From Pseudomonas sp. PDNC002 (GTDB lineage: Bacteria > Pseudomonadota > Gammaproteobacteria > Pseudomonadales > Pseudomonadaceae): DNA of 64,000 nt. Location: the NCBI RefSeq assembly GCF_016919445.1, contig NZ_CP070356.1:1743501-1807500 (forward strand), read 5' to 3'. The notes below the pieces were generated by a model. It did not search any database and was not told the DNA's origin. It saw only the letters and a list, made by a program, of their open reading frames with translations. Of the stretch, positions 48,996-62,902 are shown one piece after another. Position 1 is the first letter of the stretch. Each line of letters opens with the position of its first letter. Both the position numbers and the translations under genes were made by a program.

Positions 48996-49032
48996 GGGAC
49001 TCTCCTGTTCCGATGGTTGTGGCGACAGAACC

Positions 49033-49062
49033 AAATATAGCAAAGGTTGTATTTTTCTTCAA
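49033..49062 (-). promoter_or_regulatory. prtN promoter with overlapping PrtR operator candidate
   Basis: Minus strand TTGAAG (49062-49057), 17-bp spacer, TATATT (49039-49034). A 22-bp inverted repeat, AAATATAGC-N4-GTTGTATTT (49033-49054), covers the -10 and most of the spacer. The same half-site and spacing occur between prtR and ptrB. Its placement fits direct repression of prtN by PrtR, as known for P. aeruginosa. Operator assignment is inference. Confidence 0.75.
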
Positions 49063-49077
49063 TCGCCGCGCAAAGAA

Positions 49078-49102
49078 AACCCCGCCGAAGCGGGGTTCTT
49101 TT
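49078..49102 (-). terminator. prtR terminator
   Basis: AACCCCGC-CGAA-GCGGGGTT with T-rich flanks on both strands (TTTTCTTT on the minus side). It lies between the prtR stop (49116) and the prtN promoter, keeping the repressor and activator as separate transcripts. Confidence 0.85.
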
Positions 49103-49115
49103 CCTGCGCAATGGC

Positions 49116-49886
49116 TCAGCGAACCAGGGTCGGCGCGCGGCGATGACGCACCGTGGACCACCAGAACACCCAGCCGATCATGCGGATCTGTCCGCTGTCG
49201 AACTGCTCCGGCGGGTACTCCTCGTCGGGGTATTCATCACGGTTGAAGCTGCGCAGGCGGATGCCGCCGCCGGGCAGGCGATAGACGAACTTCACCCGCA
49301 GCATGCCTTCGTGCTCCAGGGCGTAGATCTCGCCGTCGGTGATGTGCGTGGTGGCCGTGTCGATGCCAATGGTGGAGCCATCCATGATCAGCGGCTCCAT
49401 GCTGTTGCCGGTGAGCTGGGCGCAGATCGCCGCCGCCGGATCGACCCCCGCGGCGCGCAGGGTGGCGTACGAGAAGCGCAGCTTGCGCCCCTCTATCTCG
49501 CGTACTGCGGTACGGCCGGCGCCGGCCGCCAGCTCCACTTCCTTGTACAGGCGTAGTTCCACTTCGTCCTCGTCCAGCGGCGTATCGCTATCCCATGGGT
49601 GCAGCGGTTCCAGTTGCAGCGGGCTGCCATCGACCGGTCGCATCACCGGTGCGCTGGCGCTTGCCGTCGGTGTGCCTTCGCCGGTGGCCAGCCAGGTCGG
49701 CGAGACGCCCAGGGCGCTGGCGATCTCGATCAGCTTGCGCGTGCTCTGCGCTTTCCCCGAGGTCAGCTTGTGGATGGTGTTCTGCGAAACCCCGGCGGCT
49801 TCGGCCAGTGTTTCCTGCTTCAGGTTACGCGAGGCCATCGCCTGTTTGAGGCGGTCTGCCAGCGTCGATGAGGGTGAGTTTTCCAT
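49116..49886 (-). CDS. prtR: CI/LexA-like pyocin repressor PrtR
   Basis: 256 residues, the same length as P. aeruginosa PrtR. Helix-turn-helix domain at 10-65 (LKQETLAEAAGVSQNTIHKLTSGKA). S24 autoprotease domain follows: the cleavage site is probably the AG in LAAGAGRTAV (about 133-136), catalytic Ser in GNSMEPLI, catalytic Lys in RVKFVYRL. After DNA damage RecA should promote self-cleavage and release prtN and ptrB. GGAGG lies 13 bases upstream of ATG. Faces ptrB across a tandem-operator region. Confidence 0.94.
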   Translation of the reverse strand: MENSPSSTLADRLKQAMASRNLKQETLAEAAGVSQNTIHKLTSGKAQSTRKLIEIASALGVSPTWLATGEGTPTASASAPVMRPVDGSPLQLEPLHPWDSDTPLDEDEVELRLYKEVELAAGAGRTAVREIEGRKLRFSYATLRAAGVDPAAAICAQLTGNSMEPLIMDGSTIGIDTATTHITDGEIYALEHEGMLRVKFVYRLPGGGIRLRSFNRDEYPDEEYPPEQFDSGQIRMIGWVFWWSTVRHRRAPTLVR

Positions 49887-49916
49887 GGGGGCACTCTACC
49901 TCCTGGGTTGTAGGCT

Positions 49917-49960
49917 GTAAATAGCTTTGGTGTTGACTAAATATAGCTATAGTTGTAATC
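49917..49960. promoter_or_regulatory. Tandem 22-bp PrtR operator candidates and rightward promoter
   Basis: Two abutting 22-bp sites: GTAAATAGC-N4-GTGTTGACT (49917-49938) and AAATATAGC-N4-GTTGTAATC (49939-49960). The second shares its half-site and 4-base spacer with the site over the prtN promoter. A plus-strand promoter overlaps both: TTGACT (49933-49938), 15-bp spacer, TGTAAT (49954-49959), pointing to ptrB. The layout is that of a phage CI operator region. The -10/-35 spacing is short, so the promoter call is tentative. Confidence 0.65.
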
Positions 49961-50241
49961 ATAAAAGCCAGCAGCCCACCGAGTACATGCGAAATCGGCA
50001 CGGGCTGACGGGAAGCGGACGGCTTCCCCCTCAACGCGGCAAGGACGCCGCGGGTTGCCTGCGGACCGTGATGCACGGAGCAGGCTGGAGGGTGCGGGCG
50101 GGCCAGGGAGGCGCCGCCCGCGCACCGGCAAGGGACGCCGCCACGATGGTCAGGCGTCCGCGACGAACAGATCGCGACTGACCACCACAGGCCGACCGAA
50201 GGCTCGGCGACCAAGGAGGGCAGGTCGCCAGGAGGAGCTTC
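49961..50241 (+). other. Long structured leader before ptrB
   Basis: About 280 bp with no convincing gene, GC-rich and full of hairpins, for example GGTGC GGGCGG ... CCGCCC gc GCACC at 50091-50126, and GGAAGC-N4-GCTTCC near 50010. If the promoter at 49933-49959 is right, this is a long untranslated leader. It could be an attenuator, a small RNA or an antitermination site. Confidence 0.45.
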
Positions 50242-50310
50242 ATGAATCAACACCTGCAACACACCAGGCGTTCCACTCATACCGCCGATGGGGAGGTGCG
50301 CCGTGGCTGA
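50242..50310 (+). CDS. Possible 22-residue leader peptide overlapping ptrB
   Basis: ATG at 50242 behind a very strong AGGAGGAG (50230-50237). It encodes MNQHLQHTRRSTHTADGEVR-RG and ends at 50310, 8 bp inside the ptrB gene (GTG 50303). Termination here would place ribosomes at the ptrB start, so coupling is plausible. His-, Thr- and Arg-rich, not similar to anything I know. Could be a chance frame, but the ribosome site is better than that of ptrB itself. Confidence 0.45.
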   Translation: MNQHLQHTRRSTHTADGEVRRG

Positions 50311-50512
50311 TATTGCCGACTACGCCAACGACCTGGTGCTCGACCGCATCGAGGATCTGCTGCACAGCCGCCGTTCCCGCATGGCGCTCAGCTCCGCCGA
50401 GTCCTGCGAGGACTGCGGCGACGATATTCCCCCGGCACGTCGACTGGCCGCGCCGGGCTGCACGCGCTGCATCGGCTGCCAGGCAATGGACGAACTGGAG
50501 CGGCGGCACTGA
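50303..50512 (+). CDS. ptrB: PtrB-like DksA/TraR zinc-finger protein
   Basis: 69 residues from GTG with GGGAGG at 50291-50296: VADIADYANDLVLDRIEDLL, then a four-Cys zinc finger (SCEDCGDDIPPARRLAAPGCTRCIGC). TraR/DksA-type small protein. In P. aeruginosa PtrB is repressed by PrtR and, when made after DNA damage, shuts down type III secretion. Position right of prtR and first in the rightward operon matches PA0612. Whether this species has a type III system is unknown. Confidence 0.9.
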   Translation: MADIADYANDLVLDRIEDLLHSRRSRMALSSAESCEDCGDDIPPARRLAAPGCTRCIGCQAMDELERRH

Positions 50513-50531
50513 GCCGCCAGGGAGAAACGCC

Positions 50532-50891
50532 GTGATCAAGCCGATCGATGAAATGCTCAAGCTCTGGGCCGAGGAGATGCACAATCCGGGAAGCGCTGGC
50601 GGTGGTTACGCCGGAGGCAACCTGCTGGCGATGATGATCGCCAACAAGGGCGAGATGATCCGCGGCACCCGGGGCAGCAAGGTGATCCTCGACCGCGTCG
50701 CCGAACTGGACCTGATCATCAACCAGCTGCCGGACGAGCAGAAGGACGTCGTCACCGAGCACTACCTCAACCGCGACAGCGAGGCCACGCAGAAATATCG
50801 ACACTGCCGCTGCAGCCGCAATACCTTCTACCTGCGTCTGCATGTGGCGCACCAGAGCATCCAGTCGCGGTTGATGCGTCGCGTAGCCTGA
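50532..50891 (+). CDS. Putative Q-type antiterminator / PA0613-like protein
   Basis: 119 residues from GTG, GGGAGA at 50519-50524. VIKPIDEMLKLWAEEMHNPG..., then a helical C-terminal half, LDRVAELDLIINQLPDEQKDVVTEHYLNRDSEATQKYRHCRCSRNTFYLRL. That half resembles the sigma-region-4-like HTH found in phage late antiterminators (Q/RinA/ArpU type): a conserved helix ending in YLNR, then an HTH with Arg/Asn contacts. It corresponds to P. aeruginosa PA0613, of unknown function. Antitermination is inference, supported by the many terminators ahead of and inside the late genes. Confidence 0.7.
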   Translation: MIKPIDEMLKLWAEEMHNPGSAGGGYAGGNLLAMMIANKGEMIRGTRGSKVILDRVAELDLIINQLPDEQKDVVTEHYLNRDSEATQKYRHCRCSRNTFYLRLHVAHQSIQSRLMRRVA

Positions 50892-50910
50892 ATCTTTCCG
50901 CCCCTCATCC

Positions 50911-50945
50911 GAAGCCCGGCCCTGCGCCGGGCTTCGTGTTTTCCG
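50911..50945 (+). terminator. Terminator of the ptrB operon
   Basis: GAAGCCCGGC-CCTGC-GCCGGGCTTC followed by GTGTTTTCC, 20 bp after the antiterminator-like gene. It separates the regulatory genes from the cargo genes. Confidence 0.8.
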
Positions 50946-50974
50946 CGAGCGACGTTGCGCTATGCTCGCAGCCC

Positions 50975-51457
50975 ATGAAAACACCCATCTCCATCCGTCA
51001 TGCCGAACCGGCAGACGCCGATGCCATCGTACGCATCCTCGGCGAAACCTACGAAGCCACCTGGAAGCCTGAGCTCAGCGCCGAAGCCATCGCGCGCTTC
51101 GAGTCATCTGCGCATACCGTCGCCTATGTGCGTGAGCGCTTGCCGTACTTGCGGGTTGCCTGCATCGACGGCGAGGTGGTCGGCCTGGTCGACTGGAGAG
51201 ACGACTTCATCGATGCGCTGCATGTCTCGCCCGTCAATCAGCACCTTGGAGTGGGTGCCGCGTTGCTGCGTCACGCGGAAGCTGCCATCGCAGCGGCAGG
51301 TCACGCGGATGTCCGTCTCGAAACTGATACCTTCAACCAGCAGGCCCGCTCATTTTATCGCCGGCACGGCTACCTCGAGCTGGATTTCTATCCCGATGAA
51401 GAGTGGCAGAGTGGCTTCACCACTGTGCTGCTGGGTAAGCCGCTTTCCGGTCGCTGA
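50975..51457 (+). CDS. GNAT family N-acetyltransferase
   Basis: 160 residues. The GNAT fold is clear: ISIRHAEPADADAIVRI start, acetyl-CoA loop VSPVNQHLGVGAALLRHAE (Q/RxxGxG/A equivalent), and the C-terminal YRRHGYLELDFYPDE. Substrate unknown; could be a small molecule, a protein N-terminus or a sugar. Start MKTPISIRHAEP chosen because it fits the fold. GC is lower than in flanking core genes. It is inserted between the regulatory and lysis modules of the tailocin, a place where P. aeruginosa has no such gene, so it looks like cargo. Confidence 0.85.
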   Translation: MKTPISIRHAEPADADAIVRILGETYEATWKPELSAEAIARFESSAHTVAYVRERLPYLRVACIDGEVVGLVDWRDDFIDALHVSPVNQHLGVGAALLRHAEAAIAAAGHADVRLETDTFNQQARSFYRRHGYLELDFYPDEEWQSGFTTVLLGKPLSGR

Positions 51458-51667
51458 TCCGAACAGTTTCGATTCATGACCTCGTCCTTCAGCCAGCTCC
51501 TCCCGGTACAAGCCCGCGCGGCATCACCGAGGGGCATCCGCACTCGCGAGATCAACGACTGCTGACGTAGCGTCTTGTAGCCTATACAGTAGCGCTCGCT
51601 TACCTCCGATGGCGGCCGACAGCGGCTGCTGATAATCAACGATAAGAAGTGTCGGAAAGGACTGTCC

Positions 51668-52435
51668 ATGCTTGTATGGGATGATCACCGTTTCTCCATT
51701 CGAACCCACACCTTCCAGACCATCCGGCAACTGTCCGATCTGTTCTCGCTGAAGGAGGCGGATGGCTTCATCCTGGGCAAACCCCGCCGTTATATCGACA
51801 AGTACGTCGAGCACCTGACCGGGCAGCCTTACCGCAATATTTTCGAACTCGGTATCTTCCGTGGTGGCAGTACGGTCTTCCTCAACGAGTTCTTCCAGCC
51901 GGCTCGGTTGGTCGCCATCGACTTCATGGAGAAGCCGGCTGCGCAACTGGATCGATACATTGCCGAGCATGCCGCTGGTCAGGCTAGTGCCTTCTACGGT
52001 GTGAACCAGGCTGACAGCGCCCGCCTGATCGCCATTTGTGAATCCGAGTTCGCCGGCGAACCGTTGGACTTGGTGGTGGACGACGCTTCGCATTACCTTG
52101 AGGAGTCGCGTATCTCCTTCAATACGCTGTTCCCCCGGCTCAAGGCCGGAGGTCGCTACGTGATCGAAGACTGGGCATGGGCTCACCAACCAGTGGAAGT
52201 CGCAGACTTGAAGAAGCCTTTCGCTGGAAAGTGCTCGTTGGCCAATCTGGTGATCGAGATCCTCCTGGCAAGCGTCAGCCATCCTGAATTGATCGATGAG
52301 GTCATCGTCAACGACGGTTTCGTGGTCGTACGCAAAGGGCAGGCCAGCACCCCACAAGAGTTCGATGTGGGCCAGTTGGGTTACCTGCTCGGCAACCGGA
52401 TCGGTGGTGGTGACTATTTCGCGCGCTTCCAGTAA
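51668..52435 (+). CDS. Class I SAM-dependent methyltransferase (CmcI/TylF-like), cargo gene
   Basis: 255 residues. Rossmann SAM-binding motif FELGIFRGGSTVFL, motif II strand RLVAIDFMEKPA, VVDDASHYLEESRISFNTLFPRLKAGGRYVIEDWAW with the acidic pair typical of metal-dependent sugar or macrolide O-methyltransferases (CmcI, TylF, rhamnosyl O-methyltransferase). A glycan or natural-product hydroxyl is the likely acceptor. AAGGA 6 bp before ATG. Clearly lower GC and different codon use than neighbours, own terminator, 210-bp gap upstream: probably acquired as cargo. It may modify a surface polysaccharide; that link is speculation. Confidence 0.85.
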   Translation: MLVWDDHRFSIRTHTFQTIRQLSDLFSLKEADGFILGKPRRYIDKYVEHLTGQPYRNIFELGIFRGGSTVFLNEFFQPARLVAIDFMEKPAAQLDRYIAEHAAGQASAFYGVNQADSARLIAICESEFAGEPLDLVVDDASHYLEESRISFNTLFPRLKAGGRYVIEDWAWAHQPVEVADLKKPFAGKCSLANLVIEILLASVSHPELIDEVIVNDGFVVVRKGQASTPQEFDVGQLGYLLGNRIGGGDYFARFQ

Positions 52436-52449
52436 GGACTGATCGACCC

Positions 52450-52494
52450 GAATAAATGCAGGAGGGCTCTCGAGCCTTCGCTGCATTTTTATTC
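52450..52494 (+). terminator. Methyltransferase terminator
   Basis: AAATGCAG ... CTGCATTTTT (52454-52461 and 52481-52490) with an inner GGCTC-TCGA-GCC hairpin and a T-rich tail, 15 bp after the methyltransferase stop. Confidence 0.8.
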
Positions 52495-52610
52495 AGGGGT
52501 GGCTTTGGCTCGCGGTGCTGAAAGGACGGCTGAGCACATAGCACTGAAGACGTGCTTTCGTTGGCCCTTGCTCTGACATTCGATGAAGCCATGACGGTAT
52601 ATGAAAGGCT

Positions 52611-52660
52611 GTTGCCGGTGCGTCCCCTGCCTATTGCAGCGCATTGCCGAGGAAGCCTTG
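52611..52660 (+). promoter_or_regulatory. Candidate P-box (PrtN activation site) for the late operon
   Basis: Pyocin P-boxes are described as several repeats of ATTG-N2/3-GT-N2/3. Here GTTGCCGGTG (52611), ATTGCAGCGC (52633) and ATTGCCGAGG (52643) occur, the last two exactly 10 bp apart, 233-282 bp ahead of the holin start. The fit is partial (GT is missing in two repeats). It is the best PrtN target I see in 52436-52892, which otherwise holds terminators and no convincing gene. Confidence 0.35.
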
Positions 52661-52737
52661 TTCCGGCGGGAATCGGGGGGTAAAAAGTAGTCATTCTTGT
52701 AAAGGTGCGTCCCCAGGGAGCACAACGCGAAACCTCG

Positions 52738-52766
52738 AAAAGCCCGGCCATTGAGCCGGGCTTTTT
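52738..52766 (+). terminator. Strong terminator between candidate late promoter and holin
   Basis: AAAAGCCCGGC-N6-GCCGGGCTTTTT. It stands downstream of the candidate P-box and upstream of holin, where transcription must pass to express the tailocin. Two weaker hairpins follow (ATCCGCC-N6-GGCGGAT at 52784-52803; GCCCG-TTCG-CGGGC then GTCTTT at about 52858-52877). Confidence 0.88.
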
Positions 52767-52892
52767 CATGCCCGCGTTTTTTCGATCCGCCGTGTTCGGC
52801 GGATGGCCGGCAGTCAGGCCGGCAGCCATCCCCGGTTGGCTGATAGCCGCCGGTTTCGCCCGTTCGCGGGCGTCTTTATCCAAGGTGAGCCA

Positions 52893-53237
52893 ATGGGCAA
52901 TGAACCTCAGACCCTGGCCGACGTGCCTCTGTGGGGGCTGATCCTGCTTGCCGTCGCGGGCGGCATCAGCGGTGAAATGTGGCGCGCCGACAAGGCGGGG
53001 CTGGGCGGTTGGAGGTTGCTGCGCCGGTTGGCGCTGCGCTCCGGCGCTTCGATCGTCTGCGGCATGGCGGTGATGTTCCTCGCCACGGACTTCGGCGCGT
53101 CGCTGACGCTGGCCGCGGCCATCGGCAGCCTGACGGCGGCGGCCGGCGCGGAGATCGCCGTCGGGCTCTACGAGCGCTGGGCGGCGAAGCGCCTGGGCGT
53201 CTGTGAACTGCCGCCGAGCGAGCGCGGACAAGATTGA
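52893..53237 (+). CDS. Holin
   Basis: 114 residues: MGNEPQTLADVPLWGLILLAVAGG, then RSGASIVCGMAVMFLATDF and LTLAAAIGSLTAAAGAEIAVGLYERWA. About three membrane helices and a charged C-terminus, the pattern of lambda-type/P2-related phage holins and of the R-pyocin holin PA0614. It makes inner-membrane holes so the endolysin can reach the wall and the cell lyses to release particles. AAGGTGAG upstream supports this ATG over an in-frame Met 30 codons earlier. First gene of the late operon. Confidence 0.9.
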   Translation: MGNEPQTLADVPLWGLILLAVAGGISGEMWRADKAGLGGWRLLRRLALRSGASIVCGMAVMFLATDFGASLTLAAAIGSLTAAAGAEIAVGLYERWAAKRLGVCELPPSERGQD

Positions 53238-53254
53238 AGCTGCAAGGAGACGAT

Positions 53255-53785
53255 ATGTCTGAACAACCTTTGACCCTCGCCCTGCTGCTCGACACGGTGG
53301 AGCAGGTACTGTCCACGCGACTGACCGAGATCGGCACGGTTCTGCGCGGCCCGCTGAAGCAGGTGCCGACGACGCTCCCCGCGCTGGCGCTGGAGTACGC
53401 CGGTCTGCTGCCTGGCCGTGATCCTGGCAATGGGCAGACGGCGCTGATCTGCCGGCTCCAGGCGCGCATCCTGGTAACGAAGGATGACGCGCAAGCCGAG
53501 GCCCTCGCGCTGCGTAGCGTCGCCTCGCTGGTCGTGCTTCTGCGCGCGCAGAACTGGGGACTGGAATTGGAGCCGGTGAGTTTCGTTCAGGCCCAGCCGG
53601 ACAACGACAGCCCGGCGCTGGCGACGTGCCGCGTCTGGCTGGTCGAGTGGCAGCAACCGGTTCTGCTCGGTGAGACCGAATGGCCATGGGAAGACCAGCC
53701 ACCGGGCAGCCTGGTGCTGGGGTTCGATCCCGAGACCGGCCCCGGCCACGAAGACGACTATTTCGATCCCGGAGCGCTGCAATGA
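53255..53785 (+). CDS. R-pyocin PA0615-like structural/assembly protein
   Basis: 176 residues, [20 protein letters not shown]... Mixed alpha/beta protein without membrane segments; its position (after holin, before the spike) and size match PA0615 of the R-pyocin cluster. I do not recognise a named domain; a tail-completion or terminator-like role is possible because no other P2 R/S-like gene is visible. AAGGAG at 53244-53249. Its stop overlaps the spike gene by 4 bp (ATGA). Confidence 0.75.
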
Positions 53786-54345
53786 ATCAGGACTATGTGA
53801 GTGCCGAGCACGATCGCATGCTGGCCGCGCTGGTCATGCCTTGCGAGGTCGTCGCGGTGGACCTGGCGGCAGCGCGGGTGCGTGTGCGCTCCGGCGAATG
53901 GACCAGCGCCTGGGTGCGCTGGCACGCCCAGGCCGCTGGCGCCGCGCGGCACTGGCGTGCGCCTAGCCTGGGCGAGCAGGGCGTCCTGCTCAGCCCGTCC
54001 GGCATGGCCGCAATGGGCACCTTCGTGCCCGGTCTGTTCGGGGCAGCAGCGGCTGCGCCGAACAATCGCGGCGAGGTCGAGAGCTGGCATTTTCCCGACG
54101 GCGCCGTGCTGAGCTATGACTGGCAGGCGCATCGCTATGACCTGCAGTTACCCGCCGGCAGCGCGACGGTAAAGGTCGGCGGAACGCAGGTGGTGATCGA
54201 TCCCGGCGCGGTCAGCGTCACCGCCGCGAGCATCCAGCTGACTGGCCCGGTGAGCATCAAGGGCGCGCTGACGGTGAACGGCAATATCAGCAGTACCGGC
54301 TCGATCATGGACACCGCCGGCAACAGCAATCACCACACTCACTGA
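53782..54345 (+). CDS. Baseplate spike protein (gpV-like)
   Basis: 187 residues, phage baseplate assembly protein V family. OB-fold N-terminal domain (about 15-90, [18 protein letters not shown]), then a repetitive beta-helix ([39 protein letters not shown]) ending in SNHHTH. The final His residues would coordinate the tip iron ion known for P2 gpV and the R-pyocin spike. It pierces the target outer membrane. Counterpart of PA0616. Confidence 0.94.
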
Positions 54346-54367
54346 CGTCCTTTCGACGTTCAACCCG

Positions 54368-54389
54368 GGCCCGCCAAGTGCGGGCCTTT
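54368..54389 (+). other. Hairpin between spike and gpW
   Basis: GGCCCGC-CAAGT-GCGGGCC followed by TTTGCATTT; a weak terminator-like or processing hairpin inside the tail operon, 22 bp after the spike stop. Confidence 0.55.
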
Positions 54390-54408
54390 GCATTTCTGGA
54401 GATTCGCC

Positions 54409-54459
54409 ATGGGCAACTTTTCCCGTGCGCACCCCGAGCGGCGGAGGGCGCGGCCATGA
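54409..54459 (+). CDS. Possible 16-codon coupling ORF before gpW
   Basis: ATG at 54409 with GGAGA at 54398-54402 encodes MGNFSRAHPERRRARP and ends TGA at 54457-54459, overlapping the gpW ATG as ATGA. Ribosomes ending here could restart on gpW, whose own GGAGG lies inside this frame. May be a remnant of a lost gene or a chance frame. Confidence 0.35.
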   Translation: MGNFSRAHPERRRARP

Positions 54460-54782
54460 TCGGCATGGATCGACGCAATGGCCAGCCGCTCAGCGGGCTG
54501 GCGCACCTCAAGCAGTCCATCGAGGACATTCTCGGCACGCCGCTGGGCAGTCGGCGTATGCGCCCCGAGTACGGCAGCCGCCTGCGACGCATGGTCGACC
54601 TGCCGGTGACTGAAGGCTGGAAAGGTGCGGTGCAGGCGGAAGTCGCCCGCGCCATCGGCCGCTGGGAGCCGCGCCTGCGCCTGAGTTCGGTGCAGGTGAC
54701 GGCAGTGGTGGGCGGCAGCGTGTCGCTGCGCCTGCGGGGTATCTATCTGGGCGACGAAGTCGGCCTGGAGGTGGCGGCATGA
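54456..54782 (+). CDS. Baseplate assembly protein gpW-like (T4 gp25 family)
   Basis: 108 residues of the gp25/gpW lysozyme-like baseplate wedge family: GLAHLKQSIEDILGTPLGSRRMRPEYGS carries the conserved ExR-type R-PEYG motif. It initiates sheath assembly in the wedge with J and I. Start MIGMDRRNG has GGAGG at 54443-54447. ATGA overlap with gpJ. Counterpart of PA0617. Confidence 0.93.
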   Translation: MIGMDRRNGQPLSGLAHLKQSIEDILGTPLGSRRMRPEYGSRLRRMVDLPVTEGWKGAVQAEVARAIGRWEPRLRLSSVQVTAVVGGSVSLRLRGIYLGDEVGLEVAA

Positions 54783-57773: not shown

Positions 57774-57796
57774 AACCGCCTCCCGGCGGTTTTTTT
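57774..57796 (+). terminator. Intrinsic terminator between fibre and sheath
   Basis: AACCGCC-TCCC-GGCGGTT plus seven T, ending 18 bp before the sheath ATG. Bases 57632-57773 contain no chaperone or other gene that I can support. Confidence 0.85.
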
Positions 57797-62860: not shown

Positions 62861-62878
62861 TTCGGCTGTTCCATCCAG

Positions 62879-62902
62879 GCCCCGCGCAAGCGGGGCTTTT
62901 TT
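62879..62902 (+). terminator. Intrinsic terminator between gpX and gpD
   Basis: GCCCCGC-GCAA-GCGGGGC (GNRA tetraloop) followed by six T, ending 14 bp before gpD. A textbook terminator inside the operon, again requiring readthrough for gpD and endolysin. Confidence 0.93.

Follow-up and report, generated by a model that had tools for sequence, protein, structure and literature searches.

Textbook accounts of the R- and F-pyocins, which serve as the model tailocins, divide their control into two steps, the one belonging to PrtR and the other to PrtN. In the available passages of a 2025 primer these two are the sole regulators described, with no part for PA0613, a promoter or antitermination (PMC12694933). 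The R-type tailocin cluster in the 64-kb window from Pseudomonas sp. PDNC002 (the window being the whole stretch of DNA analysed) has the genes, SOS input and late operon of that scheme. Unlike the scheme, it raises the question of why a GC-rich terminator should lie 44 nucleotides past the predicted start of the late transcript, ahead of the holin gene with which the late operon begins. The original prediction, made from the letters of this DNA, saw in this the layout of lambda Q and tR', and our analysis supports that reading: the late operon is probably gated by Q-type processive antitermination, with the PA0613-family protein encoded at 50532-50891 as the protein loaded onto RNA polymerase. 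The argument draws on the layout, its conservation, the position of the gene in phages and the match to proven AlpA promoters. The mechanism is a known one, to which the system would add a new case, unusual in having an activator of its own beside the antiterminator and more than one target operon. The earlier remark that PA0613 has no assigned role holds for the titles, abstract openings and passages covered, in which neither a function for PA0613 nor an antitermination step in pyocin control was found, and the family name, NF051483 'PA0613_fam', carries no function either.

The late promoter, its leader terminator and their conservation

The core late promoter occupies 52658-52686 on the plus strand and consists of TTGTTC (52658-52663), a 17-nucleotide spacer and TAAAAA (52681-52686), with transcription predicted to start at about 52693. 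It is missing from the output of a general sigma-70 scan, since the -10 hexamer TAAAAA does not end in T. The late promoter had been placed at 52611-52660, an interval that takes in the first bases of the -35 and a set of repeats at 52611-52648 (plus strand; half-site ATTGNN(N)GT), which resemble the P-box motif of the literature and are proposed as the PrtN site. Within the spacer lies GGGAATC (52668-52674, plus strand; -25 to -19), the proposed antiterminator binding element, at the position that GGGACG takes in AlpA promoters. Across the start site lies CATTCT (52692-52697, plus strand; -1 to +5), a putative -10-like pause element with the same coordinates as CACGAT of the AlpA-controlled promoter PalpB. 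The tR'-like leader terminator follows at 52737-52766 (plus strand; GAAAAGCCCGGCC-ATTGA-GCCGGGCTTTTT), within one base of the position first given for it (52738-52766). It folds at -20.4 kcal/mol (z -5.2, with none of 200 shuffles as stable), and a second terminator-like hairpin overlaps it at 52757-52774 on the same strand. The holin gene, identified by PF16085 at 179.9 bits, begins at 52893 and ends at 53237 (plus strand). A search of 49000-54500 against Rfam returned two matches, both under their gathering scores.

The following course of events may be proposed for this arrangement. DNA damage would lead to cleavage of PrtR, freeing both prtN and the ptrB-PA0613 operon; PrtN on the P-box would then bring about initiation at about 52693; sigma would re-bind the -10-like CATTCT in the first transcribed bases and so make the polymerase pause; and PA0613, docking on GGGAATC by its sigma-region-4-like helix-turn-helix, would load onto the paused enzyme, which would thereafter ignore the leader terminator and internal ones such as that directly before the sheath gene. 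Deprived of PA0613, the promoter would yield only a leader RNA of about 74 nucleotides. The sequence itself shows the cis-elements, their conservation, the position of the gene and the co-occurrence of gene and module; we infer the binding, the loading, the read-through, the order of these events and the part of PA0613 as the loaded protein, and each of the three control steps originally put forward (repressor cleavage, PrtN activation and antitermination) has a basis in the sequence. If the scheme is right and control has a third, processive step, one would understand why PA0613 and the tailocin occur together in the genomes searched, by what means polymerase transcribes a long operon that contains internal terminators, and what stops leaky initiation from producing lethal holin.

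The cis-elements are conserved as a unit. An alignment anchored on the holin gene and made without imposing any promoter pattern (18 relatives and the window) contains a block in which the -35 is followed by the element between the -35 and the -10, by GTA(A/C)AAAGT, by the initial bases of the transcript and by a CCCGGCC hairpin; nearly all rows have a T tract after the hairpin, and TTG and GTA are invariant. This block is kept despite a PA0613-to-holin length that ranges from 457 to about 2000 bp. Relatives of PA0613 were collected more widely. A search of the genus gave 24 loci (18 of 25 genomes were positive) and genome contigs a further 36; of 113 relatives confirmed on viral contigs the best 80 were kept, and of four phage records three were counted. 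The promoter core followed by the terminator is found in 138 of the 142 usable PA0613-family entries, the remaining four being too short to tell; two further loci, L026 and L062 (Halomonas), fell short of the family E-value threshold and stand outside the 142. A strict promoter-then-terminator scan found the pair in 133/140 stretches downstream of PA0613-family genes (two of the seven misses, L016 and L005, are sequences that end early), against 1/362 other stretches of the same loci and 1/700 block shuffles. In both strands of the window it returned a single place, at 52658.

The constancy of TTG-N20-TA across the 138 modules is no evidence, being the search criterion itself. The search pattern did not specify A+1 and T+5, and these are present in 138/138 modules, with C-1 in 137/138, so that CANNNT spans -1 to +5; among non-redundant modules (below 75% identity) A+1 and T+5 recur in 16/16, and the next best offset reaches 2/16. 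The terminator starts 79-82 nucleotides from the TTG in 109/138 modules, a count in which the picks for L072 and L096 are wrong; both were chosen anew for the CANNNT count and for the measurement of bit conservation. The latter leaves out the four early-ending loci and L056-L061, which the CANNNT count includes. In 29 non-redundant modules conservation stands at 0.88 bits up to about +17, 0.46 at +18 to +30 and 0.26 at +31 to +45, and the stretch from -25 to -19 averages 0.99 bits per base, compared with 0.42 for the bases immediately before the -35, with letters that differ between groups. A pause consensus at +16/+17 was considered and dropped (Y+16 in 47/132 modules, G+17 in 51/132). A covariance model of the module, designated R1, scores above 100 bits in 18/18 genus genomes with PA0613 and in 0/7 without it, although it was built partly from these same genomes. 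Its E-values are unreliable, with 41-103 'matches' per genome below 0.1, and bit scores above a background of about 36 bits were used instead.

A terminator between the cargo genes and the holin gene might also be thought a mere insulator against upstream read-through, weak and in need of no antiterminator. An insulator would, however, be expected upstream of the promoter rather than 44 nucleotides past the start; the cargo has a terminator-like hairpin of its own (52462-52479); the leader terminator is present even in L011, whose gap of 457 bp could not hold the cargo; and its fold is a strong one. We regard this explanation as very improbable.

PA0613 in phages and its predicted structure

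In phage records the PA0613 homologue occupies the classical Q position. In Haddon and vB_Pae_U5 the genes are annotated, in sequence, as repressor, CII-like activator, DksA-like protein, helicase/primase, PA0613 homologue and late genes, and in LPPA36, where the genes are mostly unnamed, the gene spacing is equal. The regulator gene is thus last in the delayed-early operon, by annotation in the first two phages and by spacing in the third, with the operons inferred from gene order. The stretch of about 570 bp after the homologue, which contains no listed gene in LPPA36 and vB_Pae_U5 and three small open reading frames in Haddon, holds the module in all three. The DksA-like gene of the phage early operon is the counterpart of ptrB, and the tailocin control region looks like a phage early operon minus the replication gene. 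The likeness to the lambdoid Q proteins (lambda Q, Q21 and 82Q; PF06530/PHROG_79) accordingly covers a gene that ends the early operon after the replication gene, a conserved late-promoter element, a -10-like element and a leader terminator.

The PA0613-family protein of the window (plus strand, GTG start, 119 residues) belongs to NF051483, scoring 172.7 bits over residues 1-119 against a cut-off of 100, and to PHROG_4300. Its other named matches, to sigma region 4, DUF1492 and a Q-like PHROG, are weak. The sigma-region-4-like helix-turn-helix noted in the original prediction is likewise weak by sequence (PF08281, E 0.019, under the Pfam cut-off) and clearer by structure: residues 61-110 are modelled with a predicted local distance difference test score (pLDDT) above 90, and Foldseek gives a probability of about 1 to sigma region 4 domains, albeit with a best E-value of just 0.14. 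Six helices are predicted (residues 3-17, 31-37, 49-64, 68-79, 85-91 and 96-118). A Phage_antitermQ protein of the same size (PF06530), taken as a control from a genome of the family, has predicted helices at 6-19, 29-37, 50-66, 68-80, 84-91 and 95-119, so that the two models agree in predicted helix order to within three residues, with a helix-turn-helix at the C-terminal end. PHROG_79, 'anti-termination protein Q-like', is matched by 33/83 family members at E<=1, with a best E-value of 4.2e-5. A sigma factor proper was considered and rejected, the protein being of 119 residues with a region-4-like part alone and no region 2.

Several observations weigh against the assignment of PA0613 as a Q-type antiterminator and against the force of the conservation. 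In the structural comparison that the original prediction put forward as a check, the PA0613 model matches sigma region 4, and Q21 is absent from the best 50 of its 115 Protein Data Bank matches, whereas the control Q finds Q21 first and sigma region 4 next. None of those 50 has an E-value below 0.001, and AlpA (7xya_G) stands at rank 43, with a probability of 0.06. In the viral structure library none of the best 50 of 276 matches has an E-value below 0.001 or is named Q. Residues 23-50, where the Q ring would be expected, are modelled unreliably (pLDDT below 50). By sequence, none of 83 family members matches the Pfam Q models (PF06530) at E<=1, alignment of the family to Phage_antitermQ with hhalign is non-significant (E 0.073, probability 0.8%), the window protein itself matches PHROG_79 at E 0.19, and profile searches of the Protein Data Bank with the family alignments recovered no Q. 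The evidence thus falls short of placing PA0613 in the Q21 family. On the DNA side, the proposed binding core is variable, with GAATC in 80/132 modules, and the entries share descent, some of them being the same place fetched twice, so that reduced non-redundant sets were used as well. No PA0613-less tailocin was found for contrast among the genomes searched; because six of the seven genus genomes without PA0613 are also without a PF11112 gene, the presence and absence of R1 is no test of need.

The predicted C-terminal sigma-region-4 fold would suit a sigma-like late activator that boosts initiation and leaves the terminator merely leaky, and weak matches of the family to PHROG_248 'transcriptional activator' (15/83) and PHROG_36 'transcriptional regulator' (23/83) point the same way. 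Such an activator leaves unexplained the fixed terminator, the invariant -10-like element within the transcribed region and the internal terminators, and a Q21-family protein looks alike in this respect, as the second-place sigma region 4 match of the control Q demonstrates. It is accordingly an improbable account of PA0613. Antitermination by PA0613, if true, would supply a function for every tailocin and phage member of NF051483 and PHROG_4300, and CANNNT at the start site together with a leader terminator would be a signature for Q-like antiterminators that sequence searches miss.

A second PA0613 homologue occurs in the same genome (L250, at G000:C1:3979849-3980205 and 3980242-3980400), with 42% identity over the match. 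It lies amid phage-like genes and has its own promoter-terminator module directly after it (49 bits).

The AlpA precedent and the place of PrtN

A gene in one genome (L258 in G012), probably ampDh3 to judge by its N-terminus, has an AlpA-type promoter of the form TTG-N8-GGGACG-N5-GGTA. There CATGAT occupies -1 to +5 by manual count, and the terminator has a CCCGGCC stem. The tailocin late promoter reads TTG-N7-GGGAAT-N5-GGTA, followed by CATTCT and again a CCCGGCC terminator. The AlpA pattern GGGACG-N5-GGTA is thus absent from the tailocin promoter, which keeps the geometry and differs in two of six bases.

The coordinates find a precedent in experimental work, of which the available passages state that AlpA, a repressor-controlled DNA-damage regulator of P. 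aeruginosa, is an antiterminator and not an activator (PMC7969949). At PalpB it uses GGGACG from -25 (PMC7969949, PMC9371919) and CACGAT at -1 to +5, the latter being needed for antitermination, and every Q protein is said there to require, besides its binding element, a sequence resembling a -10 within the first transcribed bases (PMC9371919). AlpA and its promoters (alpB and PA0807/ampDh3) share with the tailocin a small protein under a DNA-damage repressor, more than one target operon, a link to self-lysis, an element at -25 between the -35 and the -10, a -10-like element at -1 to +5 and an intrinsic terminator, with the CCCGGCC stem at ampDh3. They differ in the core (GGGACG against GGGAAT(C) in the tailocin), in a spacer that is one base shorter in the tailocin, in the distance of the terminator stem from the -10 (43 nucleotides against 62) and in the addition, in the tailocin, of a P-box for a separate activator. 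The PA0613 model matches the AlpA fold weakly.

The same precedent, of a repressor-controlled DNA-damage regulator that acts as an antiterminator (PMC7969949), could be turned towards PrtN, which would then be the antiterminator, leaving PA0613 to do something else. PF11112 genes are present in 18/18 genus genomes with PA0613, and five genomes have a second PF11112 gene within about 6-7 kb of a second PA0613 relative (weak in the case of L026). The distribution of the P-box speaks otherwise. When modules are split by locus number into tailocin-type and phage-type, the half-site ATTGNN(N)GT stands before the -35 in 26/33 of the former and 2/105 of the latter (about 2% in shuffles), whereas both types retain the element between the -35 and the -10, the -10-like element and the terminator. 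A TATT that precedes the -35 in 76/105 phage-type modules may be a degenerate relative of the P-box, which would favour PrtN. Six S-type pyocin domain matches were examined, among which L261 alone looked stand-alone with a P-box-like repeat; the S-type pyocin gene with such a repeat (in G012; n=1, P-box judged by eye) has neither binding element nor terminator within 330 bp. PrtN is moreover a protein of PF11112/excisionase type, with its P-box upstream of the -35. We therefore think it unlikely that PrtN is the antiterminator, and retain PA0613 in that part and PrtN as the activator.

In place of the P-box half-site, phage-type modules have TGGCA (79/105) and TTGCTGCC (92/105) at the -35. An inverted repeat, TGGCA...TGCCA, extends over the -35 in phage modules, for example at L069:8725-8760, and may be where a late activator belonging to the phage binds. 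The PHROG that PrtN matches bears the label excisionase, and an excisionase is annotated in the phages with PA0613, so that PrtN may have begun as an excisionase and been put to new use in the tailocin. Elsewhere in the same genome there is another PF11112 (PrtN-type) gene (L001, G000:C1:657783-658007) and scores 109.2 bits against 92.0 for the tailocin prtN.

Putative shared operators, further modules and internal terminator-like hairpins

The regulatory genes are arranged with prtN and prtR on the minus strand, opposed to ptrB and the PA0613-family gene on the plus strand. The pyocin activator gene prtN (49043-48669; PF11112 at 91.2 bits, PHROG_1300 'excisionase') is listed from a TTG start, and its true start may be further in; prtR (49886-49116) encodes a helix-turn-helix and S24 peptidase repressor (PF00717, PF01381), and ptrB (50288-50512) a DksA/TraR zinc finger protein (PF01258, PHROG_54). 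Putative PrtR operators are located upstream of prtN (49030-49051, ACCAAATATAGCAAAGGTTGTA) and between prtR and ptrB (49936-49957, ACTAAATATAGCTATAGTTGTA), both given on the plus strand and identical at 18/22 positions; none of 100 shuffles has two matches to the 22-nucleotide pattern, which was written from the two sites. PrtR is stated to repress prtN and ptrB in P. aeruginosa in the passages available of one study (PMC6429228), and the suggestion that the ptrB operon is under PrtR agrees with both the repeat and that statement. Because prtN and ptrB-PA0613 share this putative operator, one signal would free activator and antiterminator together. A hydrogen peroxide microarray, as far as the accessible part of its report goes, has PA0612, PA0613 and PA0614 up 5.3-, 2.3- and 2.9-fold (PMC1250226), which is compatible with this arrangement and not diagnostic of it.

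Copies of the module are also found away from the R-type operon. A second complete module with a P-box stands before a lambda-like tail tube gene, that of an F-pyocin, in G012 (assigned by Pfam, L249) and on two viral contigs. Two strong copies, found by pattern in genus genomes, precede a 186-residue protein that is secreted-looking, has no confident Pfam match and is encoded at a different chromosomal place from the tailocin (L247 in G008:C98; L248 in G016:C22). The F copy and these two form part of the R1 model, so that their high bit scores follow by construction. Two weaker copies (51 and 42.5 bits, over the background of about 36) are not linked to the tailocin and stand before RHS-repeat/DUF6531 proteins whose N-termini look like signal peptides (L245, G024:C1:5608434; L246, G008:C126:41693), and it is possible that these are co-regulated effectors freed at lysis. 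PrtN and PA0613 could on this basis act together as an AND gate on a regulon dispersed over the genome, each promoter carrying a P-box and an antitermination cassette and the members being the R-type operon, the F-type operon and unlinked genes for secreted proteins, including RHS-repeat proteins that lysis of the producer would release; we consider the case for this to be evenly balanced. If it is true, one domesticated phage antiterminator controls genes scattered over the chromosome.

The late operon, in which the holin gene comes first and the baseplate, fibre, sheath and tube genes follow, contains further terminator-like hairpins on the plus strand. One lies before the baseplate wedge gene (hairpin 54367-54387, gene from 54456) and is kept with its T-rich tail in 11/11 loci with a usable match (17 searched), the query for that gene being a translation one base out of frame that served as a position marker only and matched the same frame in relatives. 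Another runs into seven T at 57774-57791 (-11.4 kcal/mol), immediately 5' of the ribosome-binding site of the sheath gene. It was read by eye in the same 11/11 loci, the stem of the P. aeruginosa record L174 having another sequence; the automated hairpin scan ended at the start codon and so did not report it. Since there is no room for a promoter between this hairpin and the sheath gene, the sheath mRNA must read through it, and a loaded antiterminator would explain how. A third, before the baseplate hub gene (62877-62898), has a counterpart in L249, the sole further locus that gave a match. The late operon shows no clear enrichment of terminator-like sites, with 10 found and 6.9 expected (standard deviation 2.9), and the argument from internal terminators consequently rests on the conserved hairpins.

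Between the PA0613-family gene and the late operon are a terminator-like hairpin at the 3' end of the ptrB-PA0613 operon (50910-50936, plus strand) and the two cargo genes, for a GNAT acetyltransferase (50936-51457) and a methyltransferase (51668-52435). Many relatives have only about 0.9 kb between PA0613 and the late promoter, apparently with the end of the GNAT gene, and for this reason the methyltransferase gene looks like the newer insert.

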